Virus record (IMG/VR): IMGVR_UViG_3300012964_000060 | Coordinates: 1-22,508 of that record | Direction: 5' to 3' (one strand) | Source: a virus | DNA: 22,508 nt | Part shown: piece after piece, positions 4,883-20,680 of the stretch | Layout of the letters: each line of letters starts with the position of its first letter | How positions within the stretch are numbered: the first letter of the stretch is position 1 | Notes under the pieces: model-generated | Databases searched by the model: none | Told to the model about the DNA's origin: nothing | The model's input: the letters and a program-made list of their open reading frames with translations, nothing else | Translations under genes and position numbers: made by a program

Positions 4883-6094
4883 ATGAGTACAAAAATTGTA
4901 GGCGGGGGTTTCCCTGGGCAAGTAAACGTAGTGCAAGCACCTGGCGTCGCCGGTGACTTCGCATCGACCAATCCTCGTCAAACCGTTGACGCTGGTCCCG
5001 GCGGGTTCGTAGCTGGCATACTCGGCACCGTTGTCGGCAAGTTCGCATGGGCCGATTCGGTCAATCCGAACGCACTGAACAGCTACGGTATCGGCCTGCC
5101 GACCGGATTCATCCATCGTGAGCAGCAAGCCCTGATCACCGTGTTCCTCGATTACGCAACTATGGCCGTGCCGCAAGGCTTACCTGTGACTGCGTTTAGC
5201 GCGGGCGACTTCTGGGCACAGAACGACGGTATCGTGACCGCCACACCGGGCATGAAGGCGTACGCACTGAATAACAGCGGCGGCGTCACATTCGATGTAA
5301 CCGGTACGCCGCCTTCCGCCGCAACCTCCAGTGCCAGCACCGTCGAAAAGATCGTGTCGGCTTCTACTGGCGGCGCGTTGCCGACCACCAACACCTGCAC
5401 TGCGGGCACTGGCGGCGTGATGAGCAACATTCTGACTGTGGCGGCTGTCGGTTCTGGCAGTGTGGTCGGTGCGGGTCAAACCATCACCGGCACAGGTATT
5501 GACCCGAATGCGGTAATCACTATTCTGTCCCAGTTGACTGGCGCCACACACGGCGGTGCAGGTACATATCAACTGAGCGGCGATGTGACTGTTGCGACCG
5601 GTACGACCATTTCGCTGTCTGGCGGCGGTCTGACGCTGACTGGCGCAAATACCAGCGGCGTGTTTGCTCCCGGCATGGTGATTTCCGGTACGAACATCCC
5701 AACCGGTACGACCATCACTGGTTATGGCACTGCCACCGGCGGCGCAGGCACATATACCGTTGACCGCCCTGCCACAACTGCCGCGACCGCTTCGACCATC
5801 ACCGCAACCAATGCGATGTTTCTGACAGTTGGCGGCACCGTGACTGGCTCGTTCAAGTTGAATGATGCGATCACCGGCGTCGGTATCACCGGTTCGTCCA
5901 TCACCGCAACTGCTGTTGAAAATGCGGCGTTGACGGGTCTGGGCGTGGCGGGCACGTATCTGGTCACGGGGTTCTACACTGCCGTTACTTCCGAAGCGAT
6001 CAATTCTCCAGCAGGTGTCGAAACCACTTGGGTGGCAACATCCAGCGGCGCGCCTGGCGAACTGGTTAAGTTCAAAAACGTTTATAACGTCTAA
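4883..6094 (+). CDS. Capsid cement/decoration protein (Gp24-type) with three inserted beta repeats
   Basis: 403 aa from ATG 4883, preceded by AAGGAAA. Residues 1-~145 and ~376-403 match the structural cement protein pattern: an N-terminal GFPGQVNVVQAPGVAGDF segment, HREQQALIT and GDFWAQNDG in the middle, and a C-terminal TTWVATSSGAPGELVKF. Such proteins sit on the capsid surface and stabilise it. Between ~147 and ~375 lie a Ser/Thr/Gly linker and three repeats of about 60 residues (182-246, 250-308, 313-372), each with a GQ/G-x-I-x-GT-x-I core and a GGAGTY or VAGTY close. Without them the protein would be near 170-180 aa, my recollection of the usual family size. The same repeat recurs in the sheath and baseplate J proteins. 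The repeats are probably surface-displayed and could bind the cell surface or other glycans (inference). Confidence 0.82.
   Translation: MSTKIVGGGFPGQVNVVQAPGVAGDFASTNPRQTVDAGPGGFVAGILGTVVGKFAWADSVNPNALNSYGIGLPTGFIHREQQALITVFLDYATMAVPQGLPVTAFSAGDFWAQNDGIVTATPGMKAYALNNSGGVTFDVTGTPPSAATSSASTVEKIVSASTGGALPTTNTCTAGTGGVMSNILTVAAVGSGSVVGAGQTITGTGIDPNAVITILSQLTGATHGGAGTYQLSGDVTVATGTTISLSGGGLTLTGANTSGVFAPGMVISGTNIPTGTTITGYGTATGGAGTYTVDRPATTAATASTITATNAMFLTVGGTVTGSFKLNDAITGVGITGSSITATAVENAALTGLGVAGTYLVTGFYTAVTSEAINSPAGVETTWVATSSGAPGELVKFKNVYNV
5426..5998 (+). repeat. Three ~60-residue beta-type repeats in the cement gene
   Basis: Units are 5426-5620, 5630-5806 and 5819-5998 in the reading frame. Shared features are an LTV/LTL opening, a G-x-x-I-x-G-x-x-I core, and a GGAGTY or LGVAGTY close. 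Unit 1 carries a QLTGATHGGAGTYQ insert nearly identical to unit 1 of the sheath protein. Bases 5531-5549 match 11420-11438 of the sheath gene at 18 of 19 positions, and 5949-5966 match 11808-11825 exactly. Confidence 0.88.
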
Positions 6095-6111
6095 TCCGAG
6101 GGCAATCAATC

Positions 6112-7206
6112 ATGAGTAAAATCGATCAAAATCTTGCCAAGCTCGCCTTGGACGAACACAAGCGCAAATACGGCATCGATACCGGTGCCGTAGGTTTTCT
6201 GGAACCCGCATGGAAGGATAACTTCGTTCTGGCGATGGACGCGCAGCCTACGCTGATCTCCACACCGAACAGCGCGATTCCTGCGTTCCTGACCACTTTC
6301 ATTGATCCGGACGTATTGCGCGTCCTGACCGCAAAGAATGCCGCTGCCCGCATCTACGGAGAGGAACGCAAAGGTTCGTTCGTTGATGCGACCGTTGTGT
6401 TCCCAGTTGTTGAGCATACTGGCGAAGTGTCCAGTTATGGCGACTTCAACCAGAACGGTCGCTCATCTGCCAACACCAATTTCCCGCAACGCGAGGCGTA
6501 TCTGTTCCAGACCGTTACCGAGTGGGGCGAACTGGAACTGGAGCGTGCAGGACTGGCCAAGATCGGTTGGGCTTCTGAACTGAAGCAGTCGTCGATCGCC
6601 ACCTTGGACAAGTTTATGAACCTGTCCATGTTCTTGGGCGTGCAAGGGTTGCAGAACTATGGCGTGTTGAACGCACCGGGTCTGTCGCCAGCATTGGCAC
6701 CGGCACCGAAGGCGTACAACAGCAATACCTCTGGTCCGTGGATCACCAACGGTGCGATCACTGCGACAGCGAACGAGATTTACGCCGACATCCAGGCGTT
6801 GTTCATCGCGTTGACTAATCAGTCCAATGGCAACATCGATGCTGACAGCGATCTGGTGCTGGCACTCTCGCCGGTATCCGCCGTGGCGTTGACTGCGACC
6901 AACACCTTCAATGTGAACGTTCATGATCTTCTGAAAAAGAATTTCAAGAACCTGCGCATCGAAACCGCTGTGCAACTGGGTGCCCTGACTGCTTCGAACT
7001 CTCAAGGTTCGGCAGCGGGCGAAATCGTCCAATTGTTCGCCGAAACGGTCGAGGGCCAGCGTACAGTATACGGTGCTTACAATGAAAAATTGCGTGCCGG
7101 TCCGGTCATCCGTGATCTGTCGAGCTACAAGCAGAAATCAACCAGCGGAACCTGGGGTGCCATCGTTCGCCAGCCGTTCGCAATCAGCACCATGCTGGGC
7201 GTGTAA
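6112..7206 (+). CDS. Major capsid protein, DUF2184 family
   Basis: 364 aa from ATG 6112 with GAGGG nine bases upstream. It is the main shell protein, expected to have the HK97 fold. Typical DUF2184 segments are FLTTFIDPDVLRVLTAKNAA, VVFPVVEHTGEVSSYGDF, WGELELERAGLAKIGWASEL, a conserved NYGVLNAPGL loop, and the C-terminal SSYKQKSTSGTWGAIVRQP with an IST-M-GV ending. Length is normal for the family and no Ig-type insertion is present. It follows the cement gene by 17 bases and is followed by a structured intergenic region, a common place to set high capsid mRNA levels. Confidence 0.93.
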   Translation: MSKIDQNLAKLALDEHKRKYGIDTGAVGFLEPAWKDNFVLAMDAQPTLISTPNSAIPAFLTTFIDPDVLRVLTAKNAAARIYGEERKGSFVDATVVFPVVEHTGEVSSYGDFNQNGRSSANTNFPQREAYLFQTVTEWGELELERAGLAKIGWASELKQSSIATLDKFMNLSMFLGVQGLQNYGVLNAPGLSPALAPAPKAYNSNTSGPWITNGAITATANEIYADIQALFIALTNQSNGNIDADSDLVLALSPVSAVALTATNTFNVNVHDLLKKNFKNLRIETAVQLGALTASNSQGSAAGEIVQLFAETVEGQRTVYGAYNEKLRAGPVIRDLSSYKQKSTSGTWGAIVRQPFAISTMLGV

Positions 7207-7211
7207 TAACT

Positions 7212-7269
7212 GAGCCGTCCCGTTCAGTCGGACGGCTCGGAATGAGTCTCGCAAGGATTCATTCCGAGC
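7212..7269 (+). promoter_or_regulatory. Two overlapping, mutually exclusive hairpins after the capsid gene
   Basis: Hairpin A pairs GAGCCGTCC (7212-7220) with GGACGGCTC (7230-7238), 9 bp with a 9-nt loop. Hairpin B pairs GCTCGGAATGA (7235-7245) with TCATTCCGAGC (7259-7269), 11 perfect bp that extend inwards by four more pairs including two G-U. Bases 7235-7238 are used by both, so only one can form in full at a time. Neither is followed by a T run. It is the only intergenic region over 100 bases (7207-7327) apart from the chaperone frameshift extension. Likely a processing, stability or attenuation element; mechanism not determined. Confidence 0.55.
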
Positions 7270-7313
7270 AATCGTGCTCAAATTAGGCTCCAGGGATCGG
7301 TCTGGACTTTCAA

Positions 7314-7318
7314 AAGGA
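7314..7318 (+). promoter_or_regulatory. Ribosome binding site that decides the start at 7328
   Basis: AAGGA lies nine bases before ATG 7328. The same frame is open from GTG 7274, but that codon directly abuts hairpin B and has no Shine-Dalgarno, so ATG 7328 is chosen. Confidence 0.75.
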
Positions 7319-7327
7319 AATGACATC

Positions 7328-7831
7328 ATGGCTGAAATACTGCACGCGAACAAAAAAGCATCCGGCGAAACTGTCACGGTGGCATGCAAGCTGCCACATG
7401 GCCTCGTGCTTCGCGTATTTCGCGGAATTGAAATTGATGTGCCAGTGATGGGCGGCGGAACCCGTAAGGAAAAAACCGTCGAACCGCTCGAACAGGTTTA
7501 TACCGCATACGGTTGGTCGCATCCGCAAAATGCTGCCCCCCACTGCACGATTCTCGCAGGTTACGCGCTGACCGGCGGCATCCCTAAAGAACATTGGGAT
7601 CTGTGGTTGAGCCAAAACAAAAATTCAGCGATGGTCAAGAATGGCTTGATCTTCGCACACGCATCTACCGCATCGGCGAAGGATCAAGCCAAAGATGGTC
7701 GCACCATTCGCAGCGGTCTGGAACGCCTTGATCCAAACAATCTGCCGAAGATCGGTAAGCAGAAGGTTGTTACCGACAAAGACATGATGGGTCGCGAGCA
7801 AGTGGAACGCATGGAAGCAGCATACGTTTAA
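7328..7831 (+). CDS. Conserved phage structural-region protein of unknown function
   Basis: 167 aa from ATG 7328 (strong AAGGA upstream). No domain is recognised with confidence. The N-terminal half has a CKLPHGLVLRVF segment that looks like a beta-strand pair and is, from memory, found in proteins sitting between capsid and DUF4054 genes of related phages. The centre (ILAGYALTGGIPKEHWDLWL) resembles a small folded domain, and the C-terminal third is charged (PNNLPKIGKQKVVTDKD). No signal peptide or membrane segment. Position between the capsid and connector genes suggests a head-completion or vertex component, which is inference from context. Confidence 0.6.
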   Translation: MAEILHANKKASGETVTVACKLPHGLVLRVFRGIEIDVPVMGGGTRKEKTVEPLEQVYTAYGWSHPQNAAPHCTILAGYALTGGIPKEHWDLWLSQNKNSAMVKNGLIFAHASTASAKDQAKDGRTIRSGLERLDPNNLPKIGKQKVVTDKDMMGREQVERMEAAYV

Positions 7832-7841
7832 GGAGTAAATC

Positions 7842-8306
7842 ATGGCGACAGGCGTGGTGACATTCGTATATGCAGATTGGGCTGCGGCATTTCCCCAATT
7901 GGCAGTATGGGTCGGTGCGCCTGCCGCCCAGATGTATTTCAATATGGCAGCGGTGTATCTCGACAACACGGCGGTCAGCCCCGTGCAAGATGTTGCACAA
8001 CGCACGACTCTGCTGTATTTACTGACTGCGCACGTCGCCCAATTGCTCGCACCGCAGAATGGTCAACCTGCTTCACCGCTGGTCGGACGAATCAGTGATG
8101 CAACTGAAGGATCAGTGACGGTTCGTGCCGAGATGAAATATCCGGAAGGTTCGGCACAGTGGTATCAGCAGACACAATATGGTGCAATGTACTGGGCGGC
8201 AACTGCACAATATCGCACGATGCGTTACTTGCCCGGTCCGATCTATAATTTCCAGCCATATGGTGCTGGGTTGGCTGCATATAACTCTGGATTTCCGTCG
8301 GTGTGA
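7842..8306 (+). CDS. Head-tail connector (head completion), DUF4054 family
   Basis: 154 aa from ATG 7842; AAGGAG (7830-7835) overlaps the previous stop and gives a strong ribosome site. Family features are an N-terminal DWAAAFPQLA helix, LLYLLTAHVAQLL in the centre, the GRISDATEGSVTVRAEM segment, and W-x-x-QT-x-YGAMYWAAT near the C-terminus. DUF4054 proteins are predicted adaptor/head-completion proteins below the portal, analogous to HK97 gp6-type connectors. The length is normal and order (capsid, small protein, DUF4054, gp10-like) is as expected. Confidence 0.85.
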   Translation: MATGVVTFVYADWAAAFPQLAVWVGAPAAQMYFNMAAVYLDNTAVSPVQDVAQRTTLLYLLTAHVAQLLAPQNGQPASPLVGRISDATEGSVTVRAEMKYPEGSAQWYQQTQYGAMYWAATAQYRTMRYLPGPIYNFQPYGAGLAAYNSGFPSV

Positions 8307-8321
8307 GCGGCGATCCGAGCG

Positions 8322-8912
8322 ATGCAGATCAAACTCGCCGATGGTTTCGGCAAAAAGATGCAGGCGGCTATCGACAAGATGGCTGGCAATTTGGGAAATG
8401 CCACATCGGTCGAAATCGGTTGGAACCGAGAAGCCACATACGGCGCCGACAAGGGTGGCTTGCATGTAGCGCAAGTGGCGGCTATCAACGAATACGGTGG
8501 CACGATCAAAATTCCCGAGCATCAGGTTCGGGTGTATCGCCAAGTCGATAAGTCGGGCGAATTCGCACGTTTTGGCAAGTTCGTAAAGCGTTCCGCATCA
8601 AACTTTGAAACAACCCACACGGTTCCCGAACATACGGTGACAGTGCCGGCGAGGCCGTTCTTCCGAGGCATGATTGCCGAAGAGAAACCATATCTGTCGT
8701 CTGATATGGGGCATGCGTTGCGTGAGGCCGATTTTAACATGCGCAACGCTCTTGGTCTGATCGGTGAAGAAATGACCGGCAAATTGCAACAAGCGATTAT
8801 CGAATTTGACACACCAGCCAACGCACCCAGTACCGTGGCGAGAAAAGGCTTCGACGACCCGCTCGTGGAATCAGGTGTGATGCTTAGAACCGCGAATTAC
8901 ACGGTGAAATAA
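8322..8912 (+). CDS. Neck / virion morphogenesis protein, HK97 gp10-like
   Basis: 196 aa from ATG 8322, 15 bases after the DUF4054 stop; only a weak GAG precedes it, so translation may be coupled. The pattern fits gp10/Mu gpG-like neck and tail-completion proteins: VAAINEYGGTIKIP early, PARPFFRGMI in the middle, a helical region (ALGLIGEEMTGKLQQAI), then an AP-ST-ARKGFDDPLVESG motif near the end. These proteins join the head-completion ring to the tail. Function follows from these family motifs and from its place between connector and terminator genes. Confidence 0.8.
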   Translation: MQIKLADGFGKKMQAAIDKMAGNLGNATSVEIGWNREATYGADKGGLHVAQVAAINEYGGTIKIPEHQVRVYRQVDKSGEFARFGKFVKRSASNFETTHTVPEHTVTVPARPFFRGMIAEEKPYLSSDMGHALREADFNMRNALGLIGEEMTGKLQQAIIEFDTPANAPSTVARKGFDDPLVESGVMLRTANYTVK

Positions 8913-9293
8913 ATGAATCTTCACAATATCGCCGGTCAGTATGTCGCAGCGGTCAATCCGTGGCTCACCGCGCAATATCAGCAATCGAACGGGTACACAA
9001 CCGCTGGCGATGGAACGCGAACACCATCCTACGCCACTGCAGTACCCGTGCAAGTCCAGAAACAACCGATGCAATACCGCGATCTAGTCCAACTGGACGG
9101 ATTGAATCTGAACGGCGAAAAAGCCGCGTTTTATGTGAACGGAAATTGGCAGGGTGTGGCTCGACCGACCAACCAGGGTGGCGATCTGATCACCCTGCCG
9201 AACGGAAGTAAATGGCTCGTCGTCATGTTGCTCGAAAATTGGAGCGAGATGGATGGCTGGTCTAAAGTGGCATGTGTACTCCAACAGGGTTGA
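8913..9293 (+). CDS. Small conserved neck-region protein
   Basis: 126 aa; ATG 8913 abuts the preceding TAA directly, implying translational coupling. It has the pattern GYTTAGDGTRTPSY, then LVQLDGLNLNGEKAAFYVNG, then GGDLITLPNGSKWLVVMLLE, ending in a short beta-strand with a glycine. I recall this type between gp10-like and neck-terminator or DUF3383 genes in similar myophages, where it is annotated only as hypothetical. The compact all-beta appearance fits a neck or stopper protein. No catalytic motif. The role is inferred from position. Confidence 0.6.
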   Translation: MNLHNIAGQYVAAVNPWLTAQYQQSNGYTTAGDGTRTPSYATAVPVQVQKQPMQYRDLVQLDGLNLNGEKAAFYVNGNWQGVARPTNQGGDLITLPNGSKWLVVMLLENWSEMDGWSKVACVLQQG

Positions 9294-9316
9294 ACTCATA
9301 ACAAGGAATTGACAAC

Positions 9317-10021
9317 ATGAAAAAGATTTTACAGAGTTTGGTCGCCGTATTGATGATCGGTGTATTGGTGGCATCCTTGGCGCGCGCCGCCTCGATTCCG
9401 CAACCATTTTCCACATTGCCCTATGTGTATAGCGATGCTTTCCCCGCTGCTCGCCTGAATGCCAATTTCGCATACGCACTCAGTTATGTCGATTCGATCG
9501 TGGCCGGCAACATGTCGGGCAATGCGGCGACTGCAACGAGTGCCGTGTTTGCCACGACCGCATCGTCCGTTCCGTACACAGGTCTGACTGGCACCGTTCC
9601 GACCTGGAATCAGAACACCACCGGGAATGCGGCAACGGCATCGTCCGTTCCGTACACAGGTCTGACTGGCACCGTTCCGACCTGGAATCAGAACACCACC
9701 GGCAATGCGGCAACGGCATCGTCCGAATTACCCACATGGGCAGTAGTGACCGCCTCTGCGGTAGTCGCAAATGGCTCATACAATGCCGCAGACACATCCG
9801 CTGTCGCATTCACGCTTACACTGCCGGCTTCGGGCGTATCGAATCGCATCAGTTTCCTCGATGCGACCAACACGTTCAGCACGCACAGTTTGGTCATTGC
9901 TCCAGCCAGTGGCGTAAACCTCAACAGCGCCGGTTCGAACGTCACGATTTCCACCAGCGGCGCAACGGTAATGTGCGTGTATCTCAATACTGCCATCGGT
10001 TATCGTTGCGTCACACAATAA
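9317..10021 (+). CDS. Fibre-like protein with Sec signal peptide and tandem repeats
   Basis: 234 aa from ATG 9317 with AAGGAA eight bases upstream. Residues 1-~24 form a signal peptide: MKK, a hydrophobic core (LVAVLMIGVLVASL) and an ARA-A signal-peptidase-I-like site. Residues ~70-135 contain GNAATA motifs and two copies of a 26-residue unit (SSVPYTGLTGTVPTWNQNTT...), of the kind found in phage tail fibres. The C-terminal ~90 residues (FTLTLPASGVSNRISFLDAT, then a NVTISTSGATVMCVYLN strand pair) look like a fibre-tip beta domain. It separates two neck genes that are usually close together, so it may be an inserted accessory gene. A virion fibre with an export signal is odd: it could be secreted, periplasmic, or a mis-assigned hydrophobic tether. 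Confidence 0.7.
   Translation: MKKILQSLVAVLMIGVLVASLARAASIPQPFSTLPYVYSDAFPAARLNANFAYALSYVDSIVAGNMSGNAATATSAVFATTASSVPYTGLTGTVPTWNQNTTGNAATASSVPYTGLTGTVPTWNQNTTGNAATASSELPTWAVVTASAVVANGSYNAADTSAVAFTLTLPASGVSNRISFLDATNTFSTHSLVIAPASGVNLNSAGSNVTISTSGATVMCVYLNTAIGYRCVTQ
9561..9725 (+). repeat. 78-bp tandem direct repeat (two copies plus a 9-bp stub)
   Basis: 9561-9638 and 9639-9716 are identical except for one base (G at 9625, C at 9703); the first nine bases recur at 9717-9725. The period is a multiple of three, so the frame is kept and 26 residues are duplicated. The near identity indicates a recent duplication or slippage event. Confidence 0.95.
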
Positions 10022-10768
10022 ATGACTGCTCCCGCGCTCAATCTGACCGAAGCGCAAACGCTGACTGCGCTTCGGTCGTTCCTGTTGGCAGTGTTGCCTA
10101 CCGGAACGGAAGTTGCCCGAGGGTTGGATAACCGAGTGCCCGAACCGTCTGGCTCGAATTTCATCACGATGACTCCGATCATGCGTGAACGCTTGGAAAC
10201 GAACGTCGATAGTTATGACGGGTTGGACATCCAAACGCTCACTTTTACTGTGCTGACAAATACGCCCGCGCTCGGCGATCGCCTGACCAATGCGGGTGTC
10301 GTAGCGTCGGGAATAGTTTCGGCGGTGAGCGGGCTGAACGTAGTTGTGCTTCCGACCACTGGCGCGTATTTCGCAGTCGGCGATAGCGTTGCCGATACGA
10401 CATCGGCACTGCCGGTCGGAACAGTCAGTTCGGTTGCGTATGGTGGGAAAGCATCGTTGCAGCCGACAAAAGTGACCGTGCAACTCGACGTGCATGGCCC
10501 CACCAGTGCTGACAATGCACAAATCATATCGACCTTGTTCCGTGACGAATACGCCGTAACACAGTTCGCCACATCGGGCTTTGATGTCGTTCCGCTCTAT
10601 GCTGATGATCCGAAACAACTGCCATATCTCAACGGTGAGCAGCAGATCGAAGAACGGTGGTCGATCGATGCGGTGATGCAGACGAATCCGGTTGTCACAA
10701 CCCCAATGCAGTTCATGAACGCCATCGCAGTAACCACAATCAACGTCGATGCGGCATACCCCGCATAG
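10022..10768 (+). CDS. Neck/tail terminator protein (gp12-like) with inserted beta domain
   Basis: 248 aa; ATG 10022 abuts the preceding stop with no Shine-Dalgarno. The two ends match the phage neck terminator (gp12-like) pattern: LRSFLLAVLPTGTEVARGLD, NRVPEPSGSNFITMTP and RERLETN at the start, then VTVQLDVHGPTSADNAQ, LFRDEYA, VVPLYADDPKQLPYLNGE, RWSIDAVMQTNPVVTTP and F-N at the end. These proteins cap the tail tube and bind the neck. Residues ~68-147 (a TLTFTVLTNTPALGDRL start, LNVVVLPTTGAYFAVGDS, PVGTVSSVAYG) are an extra Gly/Val/Thr-rich stretch that interrupts the usual continuity, apparently a small beta domain insertion. Confidence 0.82.
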   Translation: MTAPALNLTEAQTLTALRSFLLAVLPTGTEVARGLDNRVPEPSGSNFITMTPIMRERLETNVDSYDGLDIQTLTFTVLTNTPALGDRLTNAGVVASGIVSAVSGLNVVVLPTTGAYFAVGDSVADTTSALPVGTVSSVAYGGKASLQPTKVTVQLDVHGPTSADNAQIISTLFRDEYAVTQFATSGFDVVPLYADDPKQLPYLNGEQQIEERWSIDAVMQTNPVVTTPMQFMNAIAVTTINVDAAYPA

Positions 10769-10789
10769 AACCACTTGGAGCGCAGATAA

Positions 10790-12916
10790 ATGCCAACAAT
10801 TCCAGCATCTCAGGTCGTAACGGTTAATCCGCAGATAGTCAGTGCTGGCGGTTCTCCGCTCGCACTCAACGGACTCATTCTCACCGCGAACACCCGTGTT
10901 CCGCTCGGCTCGGTCTTGTCGTTCCCCTCGGCGGCCGCCGTGACGGCTTATTTTGGCGGAAATACCGTGGAAGGAGATGCGGCGTCGATCTATTTCCTCG
11001 GTTTCGACAATTCCAACATCAAGCCGGGTGCCGTTCTGTTCGCGCAATACAACCCCAGTGCGGTTGCGGCATACATGCGCGGCGGCAGTCAAGCGGCGAC
11101 CACGTTGGCGCAGTTGCAGGCCATGTCAGGCACGTTGTCGGTCACGGTGGATGGAAACACTCACGCCGCCAGCATCAACCTGAGTGCCGCGACAAGTTTT
11201 TCAAGCGCAGCAGGTATCATCCAGACCGCGCTGGACACCACCGTCAGTGTGACCGGTTCGGTTGCCGCGAACGTAGTCACCGGTTCGATCGCTCCTAACG
11301 TTGTGACCGGCTCGATCGCGGGTACGACCATGACCGTATCGGCGATCACATCCGGTGTGCTGGCGGCGGGTCAATCGGTCAGCGGCGCAAACGTTGCCAG
11401 CGGAACAACCATCATTTCGCAGTTGACCGGCGCCACACCTGGTGGCACGGGCACGTACCAAGTATCTGTGTCGCAGACCGTCACGAGCGAAACCCTCACC
11501 ATGAGCGGCGGCGGGCTGACCGTATCGGCGGTCGTCACCGGCACGCTGGCAGTCGGTCAAACTATAAGTGGCACGGGCATCACTGCCGGAACCACGATTA
11601 CCGCCTTGGGCAGCGGAACGGGTGGCACGGGCACGTATGCGGTCAGTGTCAGCCAGACCGCGACCAGCACGACAGTCACGGCATCGGGCGGCACGTTGAC
11701 TGTTACGGCAGTCGCAACAGGCGCGTTGGCGGTCGGTGACGTGCTGGTAGGCACAGGTATCACAACTGGCAACCATGTCACTGCGTTCCTGACGGGTTCG
11801 GGCGGTACGGGCACGTATCTGGTCAGTGTGGGCGATACTGCCGGCAGCACGACCATCACATCATCTGGCGCCAACGTCACGGTGACGTTCGATAGCGTAT
11901 CAAGCGGGTTCGTCATCACGTCCAACACCACCGGCGCCACATCCACCATGACATTCGCCACGGGTACGATTTCCACACCGCTGAAGCTCACCTCCGCCAC
12001 CGGCGCAGTGCTGTCGCAAGGTGCGGCGGGAAGTACACCGTCGACGACCATGACCGCGATTGCCAATCAGACCCAGAACTGGGCGACGTTTATGACCGTG
12101 TTCGATCCGGATGGTGGTTCGGGTAATACCGTCAAGCTCGCGTTTGCCGCATGGACGAATGCTCAGAACTTGCGCTACGCCTACGCCTGCTGGGATACCG
12201 ACATTCTGCCGACACAATCGAACGCAGCCACGACCAGTCTGGGGAATATCCTGACGGCGAACGGTTCGCAAGGCACGGTGCCGATCTATTGCCCGACCTA
12301 TGCCAAGGCGGCATTCTTCTGTGGCGCGGCGGCGTCTATCGACTTCACCCAGACGAACGGGCGCATCACGTTTGATTTCAAGTCCCAATCGGGTCTGACT
12401 GCCGATGTGACTGATCCGACCATTGCCGCGAATCTGATCGCCAACGGTTATAACTTCTACGAAGCGGTTGCTACGGCGAATCAGGGCTTCCAGTTCTTTA
12501 CGCCGGGTAGCATCACTGGTTCGTACAAATGGGCCGATTCGTACATCAACCAAATCTGGTTGAACAACGCATTCCAGCTTGCACTGGTCGTTCTTCTGAC
12601 GCAATCGCGGAGTGTGCCGTATGACAATCTCGGCTACGGTCTGGAGCGTGCGGCCCTGCTCGATCCGATCACTCAGGCTGGGAACTTCGGCGTGTACGGT
12701 GCGGGGATCCCGTTGTCATCGCTTCAGGCAGCAGAAGTGAACGCGGCGGCGGGCGTGGCGATCGATAAAACGCTTTCGTCGCAGGGCTGGTATTTACAGA
12801 TATTGCCGGCGACCGCACAAGTTCGCGGGTTGCGTCAATCGAATCCCATTAACTTTTTTTACGTCGATTCGGGTTCGGTGCAAAAAATCTCGATGAGTTC
12901 AATCGCCGTCCAATAA
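10790..12916 (+). CDS. Tail sheath-like protein, DUF3383 family, with three inserted beta repeats
   Basis: 708 aa from ATG 10790, with GGAG nine bases upstream. The DUF3383 family is the contractile sheath of Bcep781/Pam3-type myophages. Residues 1-~150 ([41 protein letters not shown]-like MRGGSQ) and ~364-708 ([72 protein letters not shown]) align with what I recall of the family at about 500 aa. The ~210-residue block between them is additional: a short VTGSIA triplet (154-177) followed by three ~60-residue repeats (178-240, 243-300, 303-360) of the type also found in the cement protein. Family assignment is firm; the block probably projects from the tail surface (inference). Confidence 0.9.
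11249..11320 (+). repeat. Short imperfect 27-nt repeat, three units (VTGSIA motif)
   Basis: Encodes [25 protein letters not shown] at residues 154-177 of the sheath protein, directly before the long repeats. It may be a linker grown by slippage. Confidence 0.8.
11321..11869 (+). repeat. Three ~60-residue beta-type repeats in the sheath gene
   Basis: Units are 11321-11509, 11516-11689 and 11696-11869. They share LTV-x-AV at the start, a G-x-LA-x-GQ-x-I-x-GTGI-x-x-GT-x-I core, GTGGTGTY near the end and a final T-x-T strand. The first copy has the longer [14 protein letters not shown] form, matching cement unit 1. Closely related DNA occurs in the cement gene and a shorter version in the baseplate J gene. 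Confidence 0.9.
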
Positions 12917-12923
12917 ATATTAA

Positions 12924-12953
12924 TTGCGTCACAATCTTCATTTGCGATACAAT
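12924..12953 (+). promoter_or_regulatory. Candidate sigma70-like promoter inside the hairpin region
   Basis: TACAAT (12948-12953) is five of six to the -10 consensus; TTGCGT (12924-12929) lies 18 bases upstream but matches the -35 consensus only in its first three bases. Initiation near 12960 would make an RNA without the upstream arm of the hairpin. Weak as a promoter on sequence alone. Confidence 0.3.
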
Positions 12954-12995
12954 ACGTCACTGGCAGGCGTGGAGTATTCAGATGAAGATTGTGAC
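12928..12995 (+). promoter_or_regulatory. Start-codon-sequestering hairpin of the second HNH gene
   Basis: GTCACAATCTTCAT (12928-12941) is perfectly complementary to ATGAAGATTGTGAC (12982-12995), which is the ATG and first codons of the HNH gene. Three further pairs (one G-U) extend it to 12944/12979, leaving a 34-nt loop that contains the Shine-Dalgarno GGAG (12971-12974). In transcripts reading through from the sheath gene this would bury the start codon. Confidence 0.7.
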
Positions 12996-13770
12996 ATTGG
13001 ACGAAGCAAAACGGCGCCGATTGCCGCGCTACTTCACAGGATTGCCGTGTAAAAATGGGCATGTGGCAGAACGGGGTACGGCGTCACGTTCATGCATAGC
13101 GTGCATGAACATTCGAGCTAAAGAGCGGTATCGTAACGATCCTGCAAAATATCGTTCGGTGTCCGCCTCGTTTCGCAATGCTAACCCTGACAAAGTTAAA
13201 GAAACGCAGCGCAAATGGCGCGAGGCCAATCCAGATCAGGTAAAAGAAAATAACCGCAAATACTATGCTGAAAATACTGAGCGGGAGAAACTGCGGGTAC
13301 GTGAATATCGTGCGGCGAATCCCGAAAAAGCCAAGCAATCAAATTTAAATTGGCGAACCAACAATAAAGAGCGATTTGTAGCAATTAAGAAAATTTGGAA
13401 CACGAACAACAAGGAGCACAATAGCGTCATTCGCAAGTTACATTACGAGCGAAACGGTGAACATTCTCGTGAGGTATCGCGCGAATGGAAACGATTGAAT
13501 CCTCATATGGTCGTGGCTGCAAACGCTCGTCGTCGAGCCAGTCAAATTCAGGCAATCCCAGACTGGGCAAATTTTGGTGCAATTAACTCGATTTATGATT
13601 CGTGCAAGGCGTTGAATCTGGCATTCGGGGCTAAAAAATGGCACGTTGACCATATCGTCCCATTGCAGTCGGATTCAGTTTGCGGTCTGCACTGCGAAGC
13701 GAATTTGCAGATCATACCCGCAGAAGAAAATCAGTCCAAACGCAACCGCTATTGGCCAGATATGTGGTAA
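12982..13770 (+). CDS. HNH homing-type endonuclease with one zinc-finger-like motif
   Basis: 262 aa from ATG 12982, GGAG seven bases upstream. The N-terminus has a single C-x3-H...C-x2-C finger (C23, H27, C38, C41; RYFTGLPCKNGHVAERG), homologous to the three in the HNH gene at 1023. Residues ~45-175 are a long, basic, helix-prone region made of imperfect repeats around an ANP-x-x-x-K-x-x-x-R-x-WR theme, probably DNA-contacting. The C-terminal nuclease has WHVDHIVPLQS (H221, D223, H224), N241 in EANLQIIP and a final N250/K253 region. It lies between sheath and tube genes and its DNA is visibly richer in A and T than its neighbours, consistent with acquisition from elsewhere. Translation may be controlled by the hairpin over its start. 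Probably a free-standing homing enzyme; target unknown. Confidence 0.85.
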   Translation: MKIVTLDEAKRRRLPRYFTGLPCKNGHVAERGTASRSCIACMNIRAKERYRNDPAKYRSVSASFRNANPDKVKETQRKWREANPDQVKENNRKYYAENTEREKLRVREYRAANPEKAKQSNLNWRTNNKERFVAIKKIWNTNNKEHNSVIRKLHYERNGEHSREVSREWKRLNPHMVVAANARRRASQIQAIPDWANFGAINSIYDSCKALNLAFGAKKWHVDHIVPLQSDSVCGLHCEANLQIIPAEENQSKRNRYWPDMW

Positions 13771-13803
13771 TACCGTAGTACATCACTTAAAGGATAAGAC
13801 AAC

Positions 13804-14241: not shown

Positions 14242-14645
14242 TGGCACGCAAGGTTATCGAGTACACGGTGCTGGACGAAGGGCGTGATCAGGGCAAAGTT
14301 TTCCAGATCCGCGAAATGTCCGCATCGCAAGCCGAGATGTGGGCGGCTCGTGCGCTGTTCGCTATGGCGCGGAACGGCATCGACATTCCCGATGACATTG
14401 CTGAATCGGGTGTCGCGGGTCTGGCATCGTTTGGCGTAAAAGCCATTTGCGGGATGTCGTTTGACGATGCCCAGCCACTGTTGAACGAGATGATGCAGTG
14501 CGTGAAAGTTATGCCTGATCCGAATCGCCCGGAAGTGGTGCGCGCACTGATTGAGGATGACATCGAAGAGATCGGCACTCGCCTGAAATTGCGCAAGGAA
14601 GTGCTCAAACTTCACACTGATTTTTTTTTCGGCGCAAACCAATAA
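14241..14645 (+). CDS. Tail assembly chaperone (gpG-like, short product)
   Basis: 134 aa from ATG 14241, which overlaps the tube stop (TAATG). The frame is open from 14211, but the overlap start is preferred. Residues are mostly helical (SASQAEMWAARALFAMA, PLLNEMMQCVKVMPDPN, EDDIEEIGTRLKLRKEVLKL), as in tail assembly chaperones placed between tube and tape measure genes. Near the 3' end nine Ts (14621-14629) form a slippery run; zero-frame reading ends at TAA 14643-14645, while a -1 shift continues for 71 codons. By the lambda G/GT model this is the abundant short form, which helps the tape measure and tube assemble and is absent from virions. Confidence 0.82.
   Translation: MARKVIEYTVLDEGRDQGKVFQIREMSASQAEMWAARALFAMARNGIDIPDDIAESGVAGLASFGVKAICGMSFDDAQPLLNEMMQCVKVMPDPNRPEVVRALIEDDIEEIGTRLKLRKEVLKLHTDFFFGANQ
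14620..14630 (+). promoter_or_regulatory. Programmed -1 frameshift slippery site (T9)
   Basis: The codons GAT TTT TTT TTC contain nine consecutive Ts at 14621-14629, an ideal X-XXX-XXX slip for -1. The zero frame stops 14 bases later and the -1 frame is open to 14842. No strong downstream stem was noticed by eye. Confidence 0.75.
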
Positions 14646-14842
14646 GTCTGCATTTTCCGAATGATTCGCATGAGTATGTTGAATATGCGAACGTTCCAAA
14701 AACGATAGGCGCGGTCGTGTCGTATCGACTGGCAACGCTGGTCGAACTAGACACTGTGCTTGGCGTGGAAGATATGTACAATCTTCTCGAAATTCAAAAC
14801 ATCGACGCATACAATCAATACGTCGCAAATAAGCGAGAGTGA
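14627..14842 (+). CDS. Tail assembly chaperone -1 frameshift extension (gpT-like)
   Basis: Reading in -1 from the T9 run gives 71 codons with no stop until TGA 14840-14842, four bases before the tape measure ATG at 14846. The peptide begins FRRKPISLHFPNDSHEY and ends in YNQYVANKRE, with a central VVSYRLATLVELDTVLG. It has no good start of its own and is coding-like (balanced, hydrophobic/charged alternation), filling what would otherwise be a 200-base gap. Joined to the upstream gene it makes a ~200-aa fusion analogous to lambda gpGT, whose T part recruits the tail tube to the tape measure. The alternative is a homopolymer error in the assembly, in which case it is simply one 200-aa gene. Confidence 0.72.
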   Translation, partial: FRRKPISLHFPNDSHEYVEYANVPKTIGAVVSYRLATLVELDTVLGVEDMYNLLEIQNIDAYNQYVANKRE

Positions 14843-14845
14843 CAC

Positions 14846-16219
14846 ATGCTAGTTGATGAAATGATTTTGAAACTCTCGGCAGACGTAACTGGTCTGATTG
14901 AGGGGCAAAAGAAGTTCGAAGATGCGTTGGAGTCAATGCGGTCGAAATCCGAAGCCTCTAGCAAGAAAACGGTCAAGGCGGCAAACGATGAAGATGACGC
15001 ATTAAAGAAACGAAATAAGGCTGAAGATAAAGCCACCAAGGAACGGGAAGCGCAGGCGAAAAAACAGGGCGATGCGTTACTCAAATTGCGCAACGATATT
15101 GTCGCGGTGACGGCAGCATATGTCGGATTCTCGGCTCTGAAAAACATCGGCGAGAATCTGCTGACGATGAACACCCAGATTGGATTCTCCGCCGATTCGT
15201 TGGGTATGAGCGAAGAAGCTCTAAATTCATGGATTCGTTCTGCGGCTGCGTTCAATGCCGGTGCCGATGAAACGACTGCTGCGTTCAGCAAGATCAACAG
15301 CATTCAGCAGTCGATCAAGACTGGCGTGGGGTTTGAAGGTTCGCTGTCAGCATTAACTGCATATTCACAATCGGTGGCGATGTTAACTGGCGGAAAAGTC
15401 AATGTGGACTGGGCAAGACTGACGAATCGGGAAACGACAGGCGAAGGCTTTCTATCTGAACTGAGCACCGAAGTCCAGAAGATGTCGCTCAAAGATGCGA
15501 CCACCGCGCTTGGTAACCTCGGCATCGGCCCCAATATCGCACGGATGCTTCACGACATTGAATCAGGTAGTGTTGCCGACAAATTGGCGAAAGCCAAAGA
15601 AGAAGATCCGGCAGCACAAGAAGCCATCCGCAACGCGAAAGAATTGAATCAGCAGTGGGCACGTATCAAAACCCAAGCGAAAGGTGTTGCCGACACGATT
15701 GAAAACGACATCATGCCATATCTGAAGAAATTTGCGGATATGGCATCTGAACTGTTGGGATTCGCCAAAGAGCATCCCAAAACGACCGAGGGTGTCATCG
15801 GGGCAGGCACTGCTGCACTGGCGGGAGTATCTGCATATGTCAGCGGGAAGATGCTCAAAGATGCGCTCGGTTTTGGTGCGAAGAAAGCCACCGCCGAGGC
15901 CGCAGAAAAAGCCGCCGTGAACGTGGCAACGCGTACACCAGTCAGCAGAATAGTATTGGGTGCGGCAGTTGCCGGATCAGCACTTGCCGCATTGGTGCCG
16001 AGTCGTACGCCAACGGTATCCCCCCATATGTTGCTTCCGAATACGACCCGTCGTTTGATGCAGCACTCGTTGCCGTCCAATACCAATTCATCCGAAGTCC
16101 ACATCGGACAACTGACCGTGACCACTCAGGCCAAAGATGCGCCAGGCGTAGCGGCGGCGGTATCTAAGACTCTGCAAGATTGGTCGCTTGCGACGAATGC
16201 TAACGTGGGTATGCAATAA
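14846..16219 (+). CDS. Tail tape measure protein
   Basis: 457 aa from ATG 14846 (an internal ATG at 14861 is possible). It sets tail length and sits in the tube lumen. The N-terminus (MILKLSADVTGLIEGQKKFE) is the usual tape-measure opening, followed by a charged coiled-coil region with many Lys/Glu/Ala (~30-85), SALKNIGENLLTMNTQIGFS and SADSLGMSEEAL segments, and, near 330-385, Ala/Gly-rich hydrophobic stretches (GVIGAGTAALAGVSAYVSGK and VLGAAVAGSALAALV) that may be membrane-active. At about 0.15 nm per residue it predicts a tail of roughly 68 nm, short for a myovirus. It directly follows the chaperone frameshift extension, as is standard. Confidence 0.85.
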   Translation: MLVDEMILKLSADVTGLIEGQKKFEDALESMRSKSEASSKKTVKAANDEDDALKKRNKAEDKATKEREAQAKKQGDALLKLRNDIVAVTAAYVGFSALKNIGENLLTMNTQIGFSADSLGMSEEALNSWIRSAAAFNAGADETTAAFSKINSIQQSIKTGVGFEGSLSALTAYSQSVAMLTGGKVNVDWARLTNRETTGEGFLSELSTEVQKMSLKDATTALGNLGIGPNIARMLHDIESGSVADKLAKAKEEDPAAQEAIRNAKELNQQWARIKTQAKGVADTIENDIMPYLKKFADMASELLGFAKEHPKTTEGVIGAGTAALAGVSAYVSGKMLKDALGFGAKKATAEAAEKAAVNVATRTPVSRIVLGAAVAGSALAALVPSRTPTVSPHMLLPNTTRRLMQHSLPSNTNSSEVHIGQLTVTTQAKDAPGVAAAVSKTLQDWSLATNANVGMQ

Positions 16220-16806
16220 TGGCTTTCGGAATCCCGCCACTCCTGAACAAAGCGAACGATGCTATCGCTGTCGGTCAATTGCTCAAGAATGATCTATCGC
16301 TTGTCTCACGGGCACTCCTGAAGCAGCGTGTTCAATGGGGTATTTTCCTGAACAACAAGCCGGTCATTACGCCCGATTCGGTTTTATCTTTCGATTTCAA
16401 GCAAGAATATCGGATCGCCGATTATCCGATGGAACAAGGCGCGTTCCAATCGTATAACAAGGTCGCGACCCCCTATGATGCCCGCGTAAGCATGTCGCGC
16501 GGCGGCACCGTGGCCGATCGGCAGAAGTTCCTGCTGGATGCCGAACGTATCACTCGGTCACGCGACCTGTACGATGTGGTGACGCCGGAAATCACGTATC
16601 ATAGCGCCAATATCGCTCGGTTCGATTATCGTCGCACGACAACCAACGGTGTGACGTTGCTCACGGTCGACTTCTGGTTGTTGGAGATTCGAGAAACCGT
16701 ACAGTCGGTATTTTTCAACACCAAGCAGCCCAGTTCGCAAGCTGTGCAAAATAATGGCACGGTGCAAGCTGGCGCATCTGCCGCGACCCCCGTGCCCGCA
16801 CCATGA
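16219..16806 (+). CDS. Probable baseplate / tube-initiator protein
   Basis: 195 aa; ATG 16219 overlaps the tape measure stop (TAATG). The body has a QWGIFLNNKPVITPDSVLSF segment, then YRIADYPMEQGAFQSYNKV, TPYDARVSMSRGG, DLYDVVTPEITYHSANI and DYRRTTTNGVTLLTVDFWL, ending in a Pro/Ala-rich tail. I recall proteins of this shape directly after the tape measure in Pam3- and Bcep781-type phages. The strand-rich pattern and the position before the plug and hub suggest a tube initiator or adaptor that starts tube growth on the baseplate. The exact role is inferred; no family name is claimed. Confidence 0.65.
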   Translation: MAFGIPPLLNKANDAIAVGQLLKNDLSLVSRALLKQRVQWGIFLNNKPVITPDSVLSFDFKQEYRIADYPMEQGAFQSYNKVATPYDARVSMSRGGTVADRQKFLLDAERITRSRDLYDVVTPEITYHSANIARFDYRRTTTNGVTLLTVDFWLLEIRETVQSVFFNTKQPSSQAVQNNGTVQAGASAATPVPAP

Positions 16807-17099
16807 CACAAATCGTCCCGATCACCGACCAGCCGAACCAGACATTCAACGTCACGCTTGGCGGGCAACCTTGCACGATTAAGTTGTACCAGACTGCCAC
16901 TCAAGGTTTGTTCTGTGACCTATACGTGAACAACACGCTCATCATCGGCGGCGTGATTTGCGAAAACCTGAACCGCATCGTGCGTAGCGCCTATCTGGGC
17001 TTTGTCGGCGATCTGTTCTGGAACGACACGCAAGGTTCGAGCGATCCGTCATATCCGGGCTTGGGCACGCGCTACCAGTTCTGCTATCTGAACCAATGA
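16803..17099 (+). CDS. Baseplate plug protein (Pam3 gp18-like)
   Basis: 98 aa with ATGA overlap at both ends (with 16219 and 17096 genes), showing tight translational coupling. Features are IVPITDQPNQTFNVTLGGQP, then LYQTATQGLFCDLYVNN, then NRIVRSAYLGFVGDLFW and a GLGTRYQFCYL end. This matches my memory of the small baseplate plug family described from cyanophage Pam3, which sits in the centre of the minimal baseplate. Its small size, all-beta look and position between tube initiator and hub agree with that. Confidence 0.75.
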   Translation: MTQIVPITDQPNQTFNVTLGGQPCTIKLYQTATQGLFCDLYVNNTLIIGGVICENLNRIVRSAYLGFVGDLFWNDTQGSSDPSYPGLGTRYQFCYLNQ

Positions 17100-18019
17100 C
17101 GTTCATTGTCCGTAAAATCAGGCTGACATTCATTCTCGGCACCGGATCGTTCGGCGAGACTGGGCGAAATACGGTCACGGTCGAAGGATTGCGCGTACAG
17201 GCGCACATCATCAAAACGGGTGCCACGGCGATGGGCGAGGCACAACTGCGCATACACGGCTTGACCCCGACGCTGCTGAACGCGCTGACCTCAATATACA
17301 CCGTCACGCAACTCCAACGACGGAACACGATTATCGTTGAAGCGGGTGACGATGTTGTTGGTGTGCGCAAGGTGTTCGAAGGCGGCATAACTGTCGCGCA
17401 GGCGGATTTGAACCAGCAGCCCGATTCGGTATTGAACATCATTGCACATGCTGGGCTAATATTCTGCGTTCAGCCGAAATCGGAAGGAGTGGATGCGTTT
17501 ATCGGCTACACATCCTACCCAGCACCAGCCACGGTCGATACGATCCTGAGTGCGATGGCGCCACAGATGGGATTGCGATTCGAGAACAACGGCGTTGACA
17601 AAACGCTTGATACGCCTTACTTCAAAGGGGCGATACGCGAACAGGTGCTTGCGGTCATTGCCGCCGCCAGTTGCGAATGGAACAACGGCGACGATGGCGT
17701 GCTGGCCATTTGGCCTAAGGGCGGGCATCGGGCGAAGATTGTCGATGTGCCAATCATTTCGCCCGAAACAGGAATGATCGGCTACCCGGCATATTCAAAT
17801 CTCGGGCTGATGGTTCGGACGTTGTTCAATCCGAATATCGTGTTCGGTGGGCAGATCGAAGTGAAGAGCAGCATCCCACAGGCGAACTATCGCTGGAACG
17901 TGTACGGATTGTCATACCAACTTGAGAGCGAAACGCCTGGCGGTGCATGGTTGACCGAGATTCACGGATTCTCAGTGGATGCGGTCACAGGAACATCGCC
18001 AGTCACCGTGCCGAAATAA
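17096..18019 (+). CDS. Baseplate hub protein
   Basis: 307 aa; ATG 17096 overlaps the plug stop (ATGA). Typical hub segments are VTVEGLRVQAHIIKTGATAM, AQLRIHGLTPTLLNALTS, IIVEAGDD, KVFEGGITVAQADLNQQPDS, an LSAMAPQMGLRFENNG helix, TPYFKGAIREQVLAVIAAA, GYPAYSNLGL and LESETPGGAWLTEIHGF. Hub proteins of the gpD/gp27-like superfamily join the tail tube to the spike and carry tube-domain-like folds. The length is normal. The spike gene follows directly, as expected. Confidence 0.82.
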   Translation: MTFIVRKIRLTFILGTGSFGETGRNTVTVEGLRVQAHIIKTGATAMGEAQLRIHGLTPTLLNALTSIYTVTQLQRRNTIIVEAGDDVVGVRKVFEGGITVAQADLNQQPDSVLNIIAHAGLIFCVQPKSEGVDAFIGYTSYPAPATVDTILSAMAPQMGLRFENNGVDKTLDTPYFKGAIREQVLAVIAAASCEWNNGDDGVLAIWPKGGHRAKIVDVPIISPETGMIGYPAYSNLGLMVRTLFNPNIVFGGQIEVKSSIPQANYRWNVYGLSYQLESETPGGAWLTEIHGFSVDAVTGTSPVTVPK

Positions 18020-18020
18020 C

Positions 18021-18737
18021 ATGTTAAACAACGGGCAAGGATTTGCCGGACTTCTCGGTCTGGAATCGTTCGGATCGGGCTATAACGCGCAGGCGTTTCT
18101 CGTACAGTCGATTCTGTCGAAGGTGTCCACTGCCACGATATGCAAAGTGGTCGGTGTGACCAATTCGGGCGGCGTGAGCGGTTCGGGGTTCGTGGATGTT
18201 CAGCCGCTGGTCAACATGGTCGACGGTTTGGGTAACGCATTTCCTCATGGGGTAATTTACCACTGTGCGTACAACCGTGTGCAGGGTGGAACGAACGCGA
18301 TCATTCTAGATCCACAAGTGGGCGATGTCGGATTGGTCGTATTTGCCGACCGAGACATATCGAGCGCGGTGAAGAATCGAGCGCAGTCGAATCCCGGCAG
18401 TGGACGCAAGTTCGACATGGCGGATGGGCTGTACGTGTTCAGCATTGTGACCGCCCCGCCGACGCAATACATTCGGTTCACCCCCGCTGGAATTGACATC
18501 ACCTCGCCCGTCGCCGTAACGGTCAATGCTCCTTCGGTAACAGTGAACGCTCCGACCGCCGTGATACGTGGCGATAATGTGACAGTTCATGCCGCTGTGT
18601 CATACGGGCAAGATGTAAATGGGTATGGCACCCGAACGACTTGGACGGGCGGTACGAATTACACAATCGACAGTTATACAACGGGCGCGACTGTGACTGC
18701 CAATTCGCATCCGATTAACCCGCCGCAAATACCATGA
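18021..18737 (+). CDS. Membrane-puncturing spike, Gp138-like
   Basis: 238 aa from ATG 18021, one base after the hub stop; an upstream ATG at 17979 lies inside the hub gene and is not used. An OB-fold region (~30-150) has KVSTATICKVVGVTNSGG, the VDVQPLVNMVDGLGNAF motif, a YNRVQGGTNAIILDPQVGDV motif, VVFADRDISSAVKN and PGSGRKFDMADGLYVF, all characteristic of the Gp138/gpV family. The C-terminal part (VTVNAPSVTVNAPTAVIRGD...) is a short beta-helix spike. It acts at the tip of the tail to pierce the outer membrane. No lysozyme domain is fused to it. Confidence 0.88.
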   Translation: MLNNGQGFAGLLGLESFGSGYNAQAFLVQSILSKVSTATICKVVGVTNSGGVSGSGFVDVQPLVNMVDGLGNAFPHGVIYHCAYNRVQGGTNAIILDPQVGDVGLVVFADRDISSAVKNRAQSNPGSGRKFDMADGLYVFSIVTAPPTQYIRFTPAGIDITSPVAVTVNAPSVTVNAPTAVIRGDNVTVHAAVSYGQDVNGYGTRTTWTGGTNYTIDSYTTGATVTANSHPINPPQIP

Positions 18738-19081
18738 ACACACTCTATCTGACGCCAGGTTGGGATTTGTGCCTCGATTCGAGTGCCAATATTGCTATGG
18801 CCGGAATGCCATACTCGTATGCCCAAGATGCAGCATCAGCAATTCGCACATTCATCGGCGAGTGCTACTACGACACGTCGCTGGGCGTGGAATACTTCCA
18901 ACGGATTCTCGGGTATAATCCGCCGCTGGAATTGGTCAGGGCGCAATTTGTCGCGCAAGCACTGACAGTACCGGGAGTTGTGGCAGCGCGAGTGTTTTTC
19001 TCAAGTTTCACGGATCGTGAGTTGAAAGGTCAGGTGCATGTGACCGACAACGCTGGTTTAATCTCAGTCGCAGGATTCTAA
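18734..19081 (+). CDS. Baseplate wedge protein, gp25 / Mu gp46-like
   Basis: 115 aa with ATGA overlap with the spike gene. It shows the LTPGWDLCLDSSANIAMA opening, YAQDAASAIRTFIGECYYD and an LGVEYFQRILGYNPP motif, then a VPGVVAARV strand, as in the gp25/Mu gp46/P2 gpW wedge family. It forms the first sheath-like layer at the baseplate and primes sheath polymerisation. Size is normal. Baseplate J follows immediately. Confidence 0.85.
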   Translation: MNTLYLTPGWDLCLDSSANIAMAGMPYSYAQDAASAIRTFIGECYYDTSLGVEYFQRILGYNPPLELVRAQFVAQALTVPGVVAARVFFSSFTDRELKGQVHVTDNAGLISVAGF

Positions 19082-20680
19082 ATGCCAAGTTCAGTTCCTC
19101 AACCAACATTCGGTCCGAACGGATTCATCATTCCGACCGAACAGGCGATTCTAGCTGGCGTTCAAGCTGACCAGAATACTGCATTCGGCGGGAACCTCAA
19201 TCCTTCGCTGACTACGCCGCAGGGACAACTCGCCACAAGCGAAACGGCGATCATCAATGATTCGAACGTTCAATTTCTCGCCATCACCAACGGTGTTGAC
19301 CCCGCGTTCGCAGCCGGTCGTATGCAGGATGCCATCGGGCGTATCTATTTCCTCGAGCGGATCGCCGCATCATCCACGGTAGTCACGGCGACATGCAGCG
19401 GACTGCCCGGTACGTTCATCCCGATCGGCGCGTGGGCGCAGGCGCAAGATGGCAACATTTACCGCAGCCTAGCGGCAGGCACGATCCCCACGCCTGCAAC
19501 GATAACAGGTTCGATCTCGGGAACAACATTGACCGTTTCGACTGTTGTTTCAGGTACGGTCGCCAACGGTCAAACCATCACGGGTGTCGGTGTCACGGCG
19601 GGTACAGTGATTACTGGTGGCTCAGGCACGTCGTGGACGGTCAACATCAGCCAAACCGCTGGGCCGACCACACTGACCTGTGCGGGCGTCGCGCTGGCAT
19701 TTGCGTGTTCGACCACCGGCCCGATTGCATGTCCTGGTGGAATCGCACCGAACGGATTCCTGAACACCATCTATCAGGCGATCGCGGGTTGGGACTCGAT
19801 AAACAATGCCGTCGACGGTGTGCTCGGCAACAATGTCGAAAGTCGTGCGGCATTCGAATTCCGCCGCGAGGCATCTGTCGCCTTGAACGCACAGGGTTCA
19901 CTCCCATCAGTTCTCGGCGCCGTGTTCCAAGTGCCCAATGTGCTCGATGCTTACGCTACCGAAAATCAAACGAACGTGACAAGCGGCGCGGTGATTAACG
20001 GGACGATCGCCGCAACAACCCTCACCGTCAATTCGGTCACATCGGGCACCGTAGCAATCGGGCAGATGGTCACTGGTGCAGGCGTCGCACAAGGGACGAT
20101 CATCACCGCAGGCTCAGGTGTATCGTGGACGGTCAATATCAGTCAATCGGTCGGCCCCGAAGCCATGACGTGTGCGATCGGCGGCGTACCTCTCGTGGCG
20201 CATTCGATATACGTTGCGGTCTATGGTGGCAATTCGGCAGCGGTGGCACAAGCCATCTGGAGCAAAAAATCGCCCGGATGCAATTACAACGGCAATACGA
20301 CAGTCGCCGTGCAGGATACGACCGCACCCTATACAGTGCCGTATCCGACATATAATGTGACATTTCGGACACCGACGCCGACTGTAATTTTGTTCTCTGT
20401 GTCGATTGTGAACAACCCTCAAGTTCCGGCGAACGCTTCGACGCTGATCAAGGGTGCCATCATCGCAACGTTCACCGGTGCGAACGGTAGTCCGCGCGCA
20501 CGATTGGGCGCGACGATCCTTGCCAGCCAGTTCTATGCTGCGATATTCGCACTCGGGTCATGGGTTCAGATCCAACAGATATTGGTCGGGGTGGGGTCGG
20601 CCAACAAATCATCAGTGATTATGCAGATCGACCAGGAACCGACAACTTCGACAGATGACATATCTGTGGCGTTTGTCTGA
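19082..20680 (+). CDS. Baseplate J-like protein with two inserted beta repeats
   Basis: 532 aa; ATG 19082 abuts the previous stop. The baseplate J core is shown by [86 protein letters not shown] and C-terminal segments around IYVAVYGG and [10 protein letters not shown]. It forms the wedges around the hub and attaches fibres. Two extra blocks break the core at ~139-200 and ~305-364, each a shorter version of the repeat in the cement and sheath proteins ([23 protein letters not shown] and [10 protein letters not shown]; similar in the second). The two inserts resemble each other more than the other copies, so a local duplication or parallel insertion is likely. Confidence 0.87.
19496..19681 (+). 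repeat. Beta-type repeat, copy 1 in baseplate J gene
   Basis: Residues ~139-200 ([45 protein letters not shown]). It lacks the GGTGTY close of the cement/sheath form, having GTSWTV instead. TCGTGGACGGTCAA is shared exactly with copy 2. Confidence 0.8.
19994..20173 (+). repeat. Beta-type repeat, copy 2 in baseplate J gene
   Basis: Residues ~305-364 ([45 protein letters not shown]), about 110 residues after copy 1 and in a different part of the J core. Confidence 0.8.

Follow-up and report, generated by a model that had tools for sequence, protein, structure and literature searches.

A small repeated domain shared by unrelated head, tail and baseplate proteins of a contractile-tailed phage

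A ~60-residue unit rich in Gly, Thr and Val recurs in unrelated structural proteins of a contractile-tailed phage and its relatives, as a domain that is maintained, associated with the virion, optional and transferable between genes. We analyzed a 22.5-kb viral record (IMGVR_UViG_3300012964_000060), here called the window, which covers late genes of the phage, among them those for a capsid cement protein (PF23982), a DUF3383 tail sheath, a tail terminator (PF23961), baseplate wedge proteins and a DUF2612 protein. Eight units are found in the window, and among related viral contigs the same unit is present in at least nine protein clusters rather than only in the three proteins noticed at first.

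Eight units in three virion genes

All eight units and the genes that carry them are on the + strand. The cement (minor capsid) protein gene (4883–6094; 403 aa), whose PF23982/phrog_2122 core spans aa 9–161, has three units located by profile: unit 1 at 5423–5614 (aa 181–244), unit 2 at 5630–5803 (aa 250–307), which has 95% amino acid identity to cement unit 2 of the related contig L051, and unit 3, the most diverged, at 5819–6004 (aa 313–374). Three more lie in the tail sheath gene (10790–12916; 708 aa; PF11863 (DUF3383)/phrog_205), the core of which aligns with the sheaths of phages Pa193 and E217 (Z 33–34): unit 1 at 11318–11509 (aa 177–240; 73.6 bits), unit 2 at 11507–11689 (aa 240–300; 67.2 bits) and unit 3 at 11687–11869 (aa 300–360; 57.4 bits). 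The remaining two, at 19520–19687 (aa 147–202) and 20009–20176 (aa 310–365), are 67% identical in amino acid sequence and belong to the baseplate J-like (wedge) gene (19082–20680; 532 aa; phrog_6); the J protein of one relative (L005) matches Pfam Baseplate_J. Both J units are of a short form, that is, the unit without its 'GTGxGG' hairpin, and this form is confined to J (13 of 13 cases in the window and its sheath relatives).

We applied a leave-one-protein-out test, which guards against composition effects: a profile made from the units of two proteins is searched in the third, and the control is the highest score among 1000 shuffles of the residues in that region. Seven of the eight units are recovered in this way, with 42.6, 41.4 and 30.8 bits in the sheath, 19.1 and 28.1 bits in the cement protein and 23.5 and 21.2 bits in J, that is, 19–43 bits for real units compared with best shuffle scores of 6.6–8.1 bits. 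Cement unit 3 is too diverged for the leave-one-out profile and was recovered only with the full-family profile, at 19.7 bits. The count made in the first-pass annotation (three units in cement, three in the sheath, two short ones in J) is thus borne out by the two kinds of profile, and its proposal of one homologous module in unrelated head, tail and baseplate proteins holds as well. In composition the units have 3.4% aromatic residues, 3.3% charged residues and 0.1% Trp. Low-complexity Gly/Thr-rich sequence that merely resembles repeats might be suspected from the 47% of Gly/Ser/Thr. The leave-one-out scores, far above those of the shuffles, already refute this reading, and together with a confident predicted fold and the 84–99% conservation of several Gly positions and one Tyr (338 units, collected as described below) they leave it with practically no chance of being right.

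Elsewhere in the window, the ORFs at 1023–1898 and 12982–13770, the latter directly downstream of the sheath gene, have Cys-containing repeat segments together with an HNH-like 'VDHIV' motif, and look like free-standing homing endonucleases. A Nudix-box-like motif (REMVEEIGA) lies upstream of a prohead-protease-like part in ORF 2678–3994, a possible Nudix/prohead-protease-like fusion. The proteins encoded at 9317–10021 and 21973–22508 have apparent signal peptides and fibre-like repeats, and one of them sits among the neck genes; SVPYTGLTGTVPTWNQNTTGNAATAS is present twice in protein 9317–10021.

Predicted fold and relation to known domains

AlphaFold2 models a small all-beta domain, in the three sheath units alone (mean pLDDT 78; unit 1 scores highest, with block pLDDT mostly 83–96) as well as in the whole sheath (mean 86). 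The top Foldseek match in the PDB is chain 1 of 8ECI, from Arthrobacter phage Bridgette (probability 1.00, E 0.16); VIA-align superimposes this chain with Z 6.8 over 64 residues at 30% identity. VIA-align also returns barrels like domain 2 of EF-Tu at Z 6–7 (maximum 7.2; ~71 residues, rmsd 2.5), middling values given that Z below 8 may reflect a common arrangement, and N-terminal barrels of F1-ATPase are likewise among the best structural alignments. On these models, the unit is best read as a small predicted beta-barrel resembling EF-Tu domain 2. Its likeness to EF-Tu domain 2 and other RIFT-type barrels is one of predicted fold; there is no sequence match to EF-Tu domain 2, and no nucleotide or tRNA role is implied. 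RIFT-related domains have also been reported from proteins of the phage tail and neck (PMC10684548). The Bridgette chain matches the unit in structure but is a separate small chain and not an insert, and the unit profiles find no sequence match to it. Pfam has no match to the units of the window proteins, and no model in Pfam or NCBIfam covers the unit. A PDB sequence search with the unit profiles gave weak matches to the designed repeat proteins Ika8 and Ika4, which we take as chance.

The known module common to different virion proteins is the Ig-like accessory domain of phages, as in Hoc and in the promiscuous Ig-like domains of capsid, tail and baseplate proteins, and the first-pass annotation had raised an Ig-type domain as a possibility for the unit. 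The two are alike in lifestyle: the unit, too, is promiscuous, all-beta, optional, inserted in many types of virion protein and likely exposed, and 1 of 51 units weakly matches a Pfam Ig model (Big_6, E 0.014). The structure matches listed point elsewhere, with Z 6–7 for the EF-Tu domain 2 and F1 barrels besides the Bridgette chain, whereas Fab chains reach a Foldseek probability of only 0.03–0.06, which makes an Ig-like domain a highly improbable identity for the unit. The unit further differs from the phage Ig-like domains in its predicted EF-Tu-domain-2-like barrel of ~60 residues, in its tandem arrangement within loops and in having no curated family model.

Host proteins, insertion sites and movement between genes

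A scan with the sheath yielded 80 related viral contigs, and a unit profile built from the eight window units was refined on the ORFs of these contigs. In the contigs and the window together it finds 338 units at 74 loci, distributed over the sheath (124), cement (74), terminator (69) and J (58) proteins, a phrog_1912 head protein (5) and a phrog_3645 virion protein (3), with occasional copies in small secreted proteins and in GH5-like and beta-helix proteins. GH5-like and beta-helix proteins with an embedded unit (L065:448–2517 and L072:3–1298) adjoin virion genes. A second scan, with the consensus unit as query, reached phages outside the sheath-relative group: SU10-type adaptor and P22 gp10-like head closure proteins carry the unit in many contigs, and further hosts are a lambda gpD-like decoration protein, a collar fibre, a baseplate wedge protein and a GDSL esterase. 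In some bacterial contigs the unit lies inside large proteins. Among predicted viral models, structural matches include ones annotated as HK97 capsid protein, P22 gp10, lambda Stf and giant-virus collagen-repeat proteins. In one record (L200; MW202520.1, 1273–2241) the unit is in a protein annotated 'portal protein'; its position before the stabilization protein suggests an adaptor rather than a portal. A tblastn search of annotated phages gave one weak match and of plasmids none, an uninformative absence because low-complexity masking of the Gly/Thr-rich query probably hides matches.

The unit is not part of the core of its host proteins. It is absent from 15 of 81 sheaths, 4 of 41 cement proteins and 10 of 54 J proteins, and where present it is inserted between conserved core blocks, so that the claim that it interrupts otherwise normal family sequence stands, and the contrary possibility, ordinary core segments of the DUF3383, cement and J families, does not. 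Sheaths have a single insertion point, flanked by the helix 'AAxLIQTAL' and the strand 'VTYDSVSGAF'; it holds zero, one, two or three copies, and the E217 and Pa193 sheaths align on either side of it, near their residues 150–157. In cement proteins the insertion point is the C-terminal end of the core, terminators have two sites, the phrog_1912 protein has one, and J has at least four. The J units of the window sit at two sites other than the one that most relatives use (that of J unit 1 is unused in the fetched relatives), yet they have the J-specific short form, which suggests movement within the J gene. In the window terminator, the loop where the terminators of relatives carry the unit is occupied by a ~60-residue insert of another sequence type (10259–10441, + strand; aa ~80–140), common to L051; it was dropped as a candidate ninth unit, scoring only 2.3 bits with the unit profile.

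On a tree of 277 units, the host-protein label changes 43 times compared with 253 times for the genome label, which indicates that most units are inherited together with their host gene and that transfers are occasional, and leads us to reject a genome-wide homogenisation of units. The transfers can be seen as block matches at the DNA level: in L014 and L015, sheath units 1–2 match J units 1–2 of the same contig (437 bp, 68%), and in L049, cement units 1–2 match sheath units 1–2 of the same contig (425 bp, 68%). It should be noted that a base composition common to both genes can contribute to nucleotide values of this kind. The tandems of cement and sheath align in register in 14 of 16 genomes; they also do so between genomes. 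Sheath–J and sheath–cement similarity within genomes exceeds that under permuted genome pairing, a permutation that removes shared ancestry only partly. Because two-unit blocks match in register at the DNA level, we conclude that copies have moved between unrelated virion genes, both as single units and as two-unit blocks.

Copies are confined to late virion genes. The 101 copies in 18 phage records (40–76 kb each, 1.07 Mb) all lie within the late structural region, with none outside it, and in Mesorhizobium, Paraburkholderia and Rhizobium genomes (6.2–11.1 Mb) all copies are inside one 15–20 kb stretch each and none elsewhere; in a sample of 200 genomes of the Mesorhizobium family, 2 have any unit at all. 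An indiscriminate mobile DNA element is ruled out, as the copies in these 18 records and three bacterial genomes keep to such a region and are not scattered over genes of every kind. Unit presence is correlated among the four main host proteins (Fisher p 0.0003–0.02 in five of six pairs, uncorrected for kinship). Median dN/dS between related pairs is 0.19–0.29 for units compared with 0.10–0.16 for host cores; the units are under purifying selection and evolve somewhat faster than the cores. These observations bear on the possibility that the unit is a near-neutral passenger, a foldable module inserted by recombination and tolerated in loops without benefit to the phage. The bland composition, the variable copy number, the many sites, the block copying between genes and the different insert in the same loop of the window terminator would all fit a passenger. 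A dN/dS of ~0.2–0.3, close to that of the host cores, the restriction to virion and exported proteins and the correlated presence across proteins argue against it, and we regard a passenger as quite improbable.

Surface exposure and possible role

By alignment with the Pa193 and E217 sheaths, the sheath units map into the outer domain, which is flexible in Pa193 (PMC11042391), and are predicted to be on the sheath exterior; the model is that of a monomer, and exposure is deduced from the homologues. Members of the cement family cover the outside of the capsid in E217 (PMC10329688). At the copy numbers of E217, ~200 for the sheath and ~180 for the cement protein in each particle, the modules would coat the virion.

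For phage Ig-like domains, weak contacts to cell surfaces or to polymers of the environment have already been proposed. We infer that the units, too, are surface exposed and engage in weak multivalent contacts, and display or adhesion appears the likeliest role. The explanation that we favor overall, at about an even chance, takes the unit as a compact accessory domain with a beta-barrel fold. Recombination would have carried it into permissive loops on the surface of many virion proteins, where the copies would form a neutral multivalent layer with numerous weak contacts to such surfaces or polymers. The scarcity of aromatic and charged residues and the absence of hypervariable positions or a variable face among 338 units argue against a classic lectin. 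The phage-wide display domain proposed in the first-pass annotation is therefore upheld in part: the unit is on head, tail and baseplate proteins, while adhesion to mucus or polysaccharide may be one use of it; no evident site for such binding is apparent from the residue composition. The terminator and the head-tail proteins that carry units are small neck parts, for which the value of display is less obvious.

The main rival to a display or adhesion domain is a structural brace: through contacts with neighboring subunits, the barrels would lend stiffness to head, neck and tail in the manner of cement or decoration proteins. The Bridgette chain as top Foldseek match, the presence of units in cement, neck and head-tail proteins and their uncharged, rigid composition speak for it, and in PMC9230969 the same role is put forward as an idea for extra tail-sheath domains. 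However, one sheath site holds zero to three copies, unit-free relatives retain the same core, and one unit would need to suit many different lattice contacts, so that we consider a brace somewhat unlikely. The extra sheath domains described there resemble the unit in that they supplement a conserved core and lie away from the tail tube. Surface contact and bracing are both proposed as their roles. Unlike the unit, they are mostly Ig-like and, in the portions available, are not described as common to the cement and baseplate proteins of the same phage (PMC9230969). Phage domain shuffling is reported to be concentrated in receptor-binding proteins, endolysins and polymerases (PMC10684548), and the portions available of these two sources describe no module common to the cement, sheath and baseplate of one phage (PMC9230969, PMC10684548).

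The unit itself is optional and recurs in a number of virion proteins unrelated to one another. More tentatively, and somewhat short of an even chance, it may represent a virion-wide surface module not yet described, a mobile barrel that contractile, short-tailed and lambda-like phages maintain and copy, also as tandem blocks, across head, neck, tail and baseplate genes, and that would provide a single outer layer over the particle. If so, it would be a second promiscuous virion module, of non-Ig fold, present on several parts of one particle and moving between genes as blocks, and virions could gain a particle-wide surface coat through domain copying. There is also a consequence for annotation: the phrog_21413 and phrog_38233 ('tail fiber') profiles contain the unit, so that proteins may come to be named after the insert, for example as 'tail fiber' where the unit is all that is common, through errors carried by the profile libraries.
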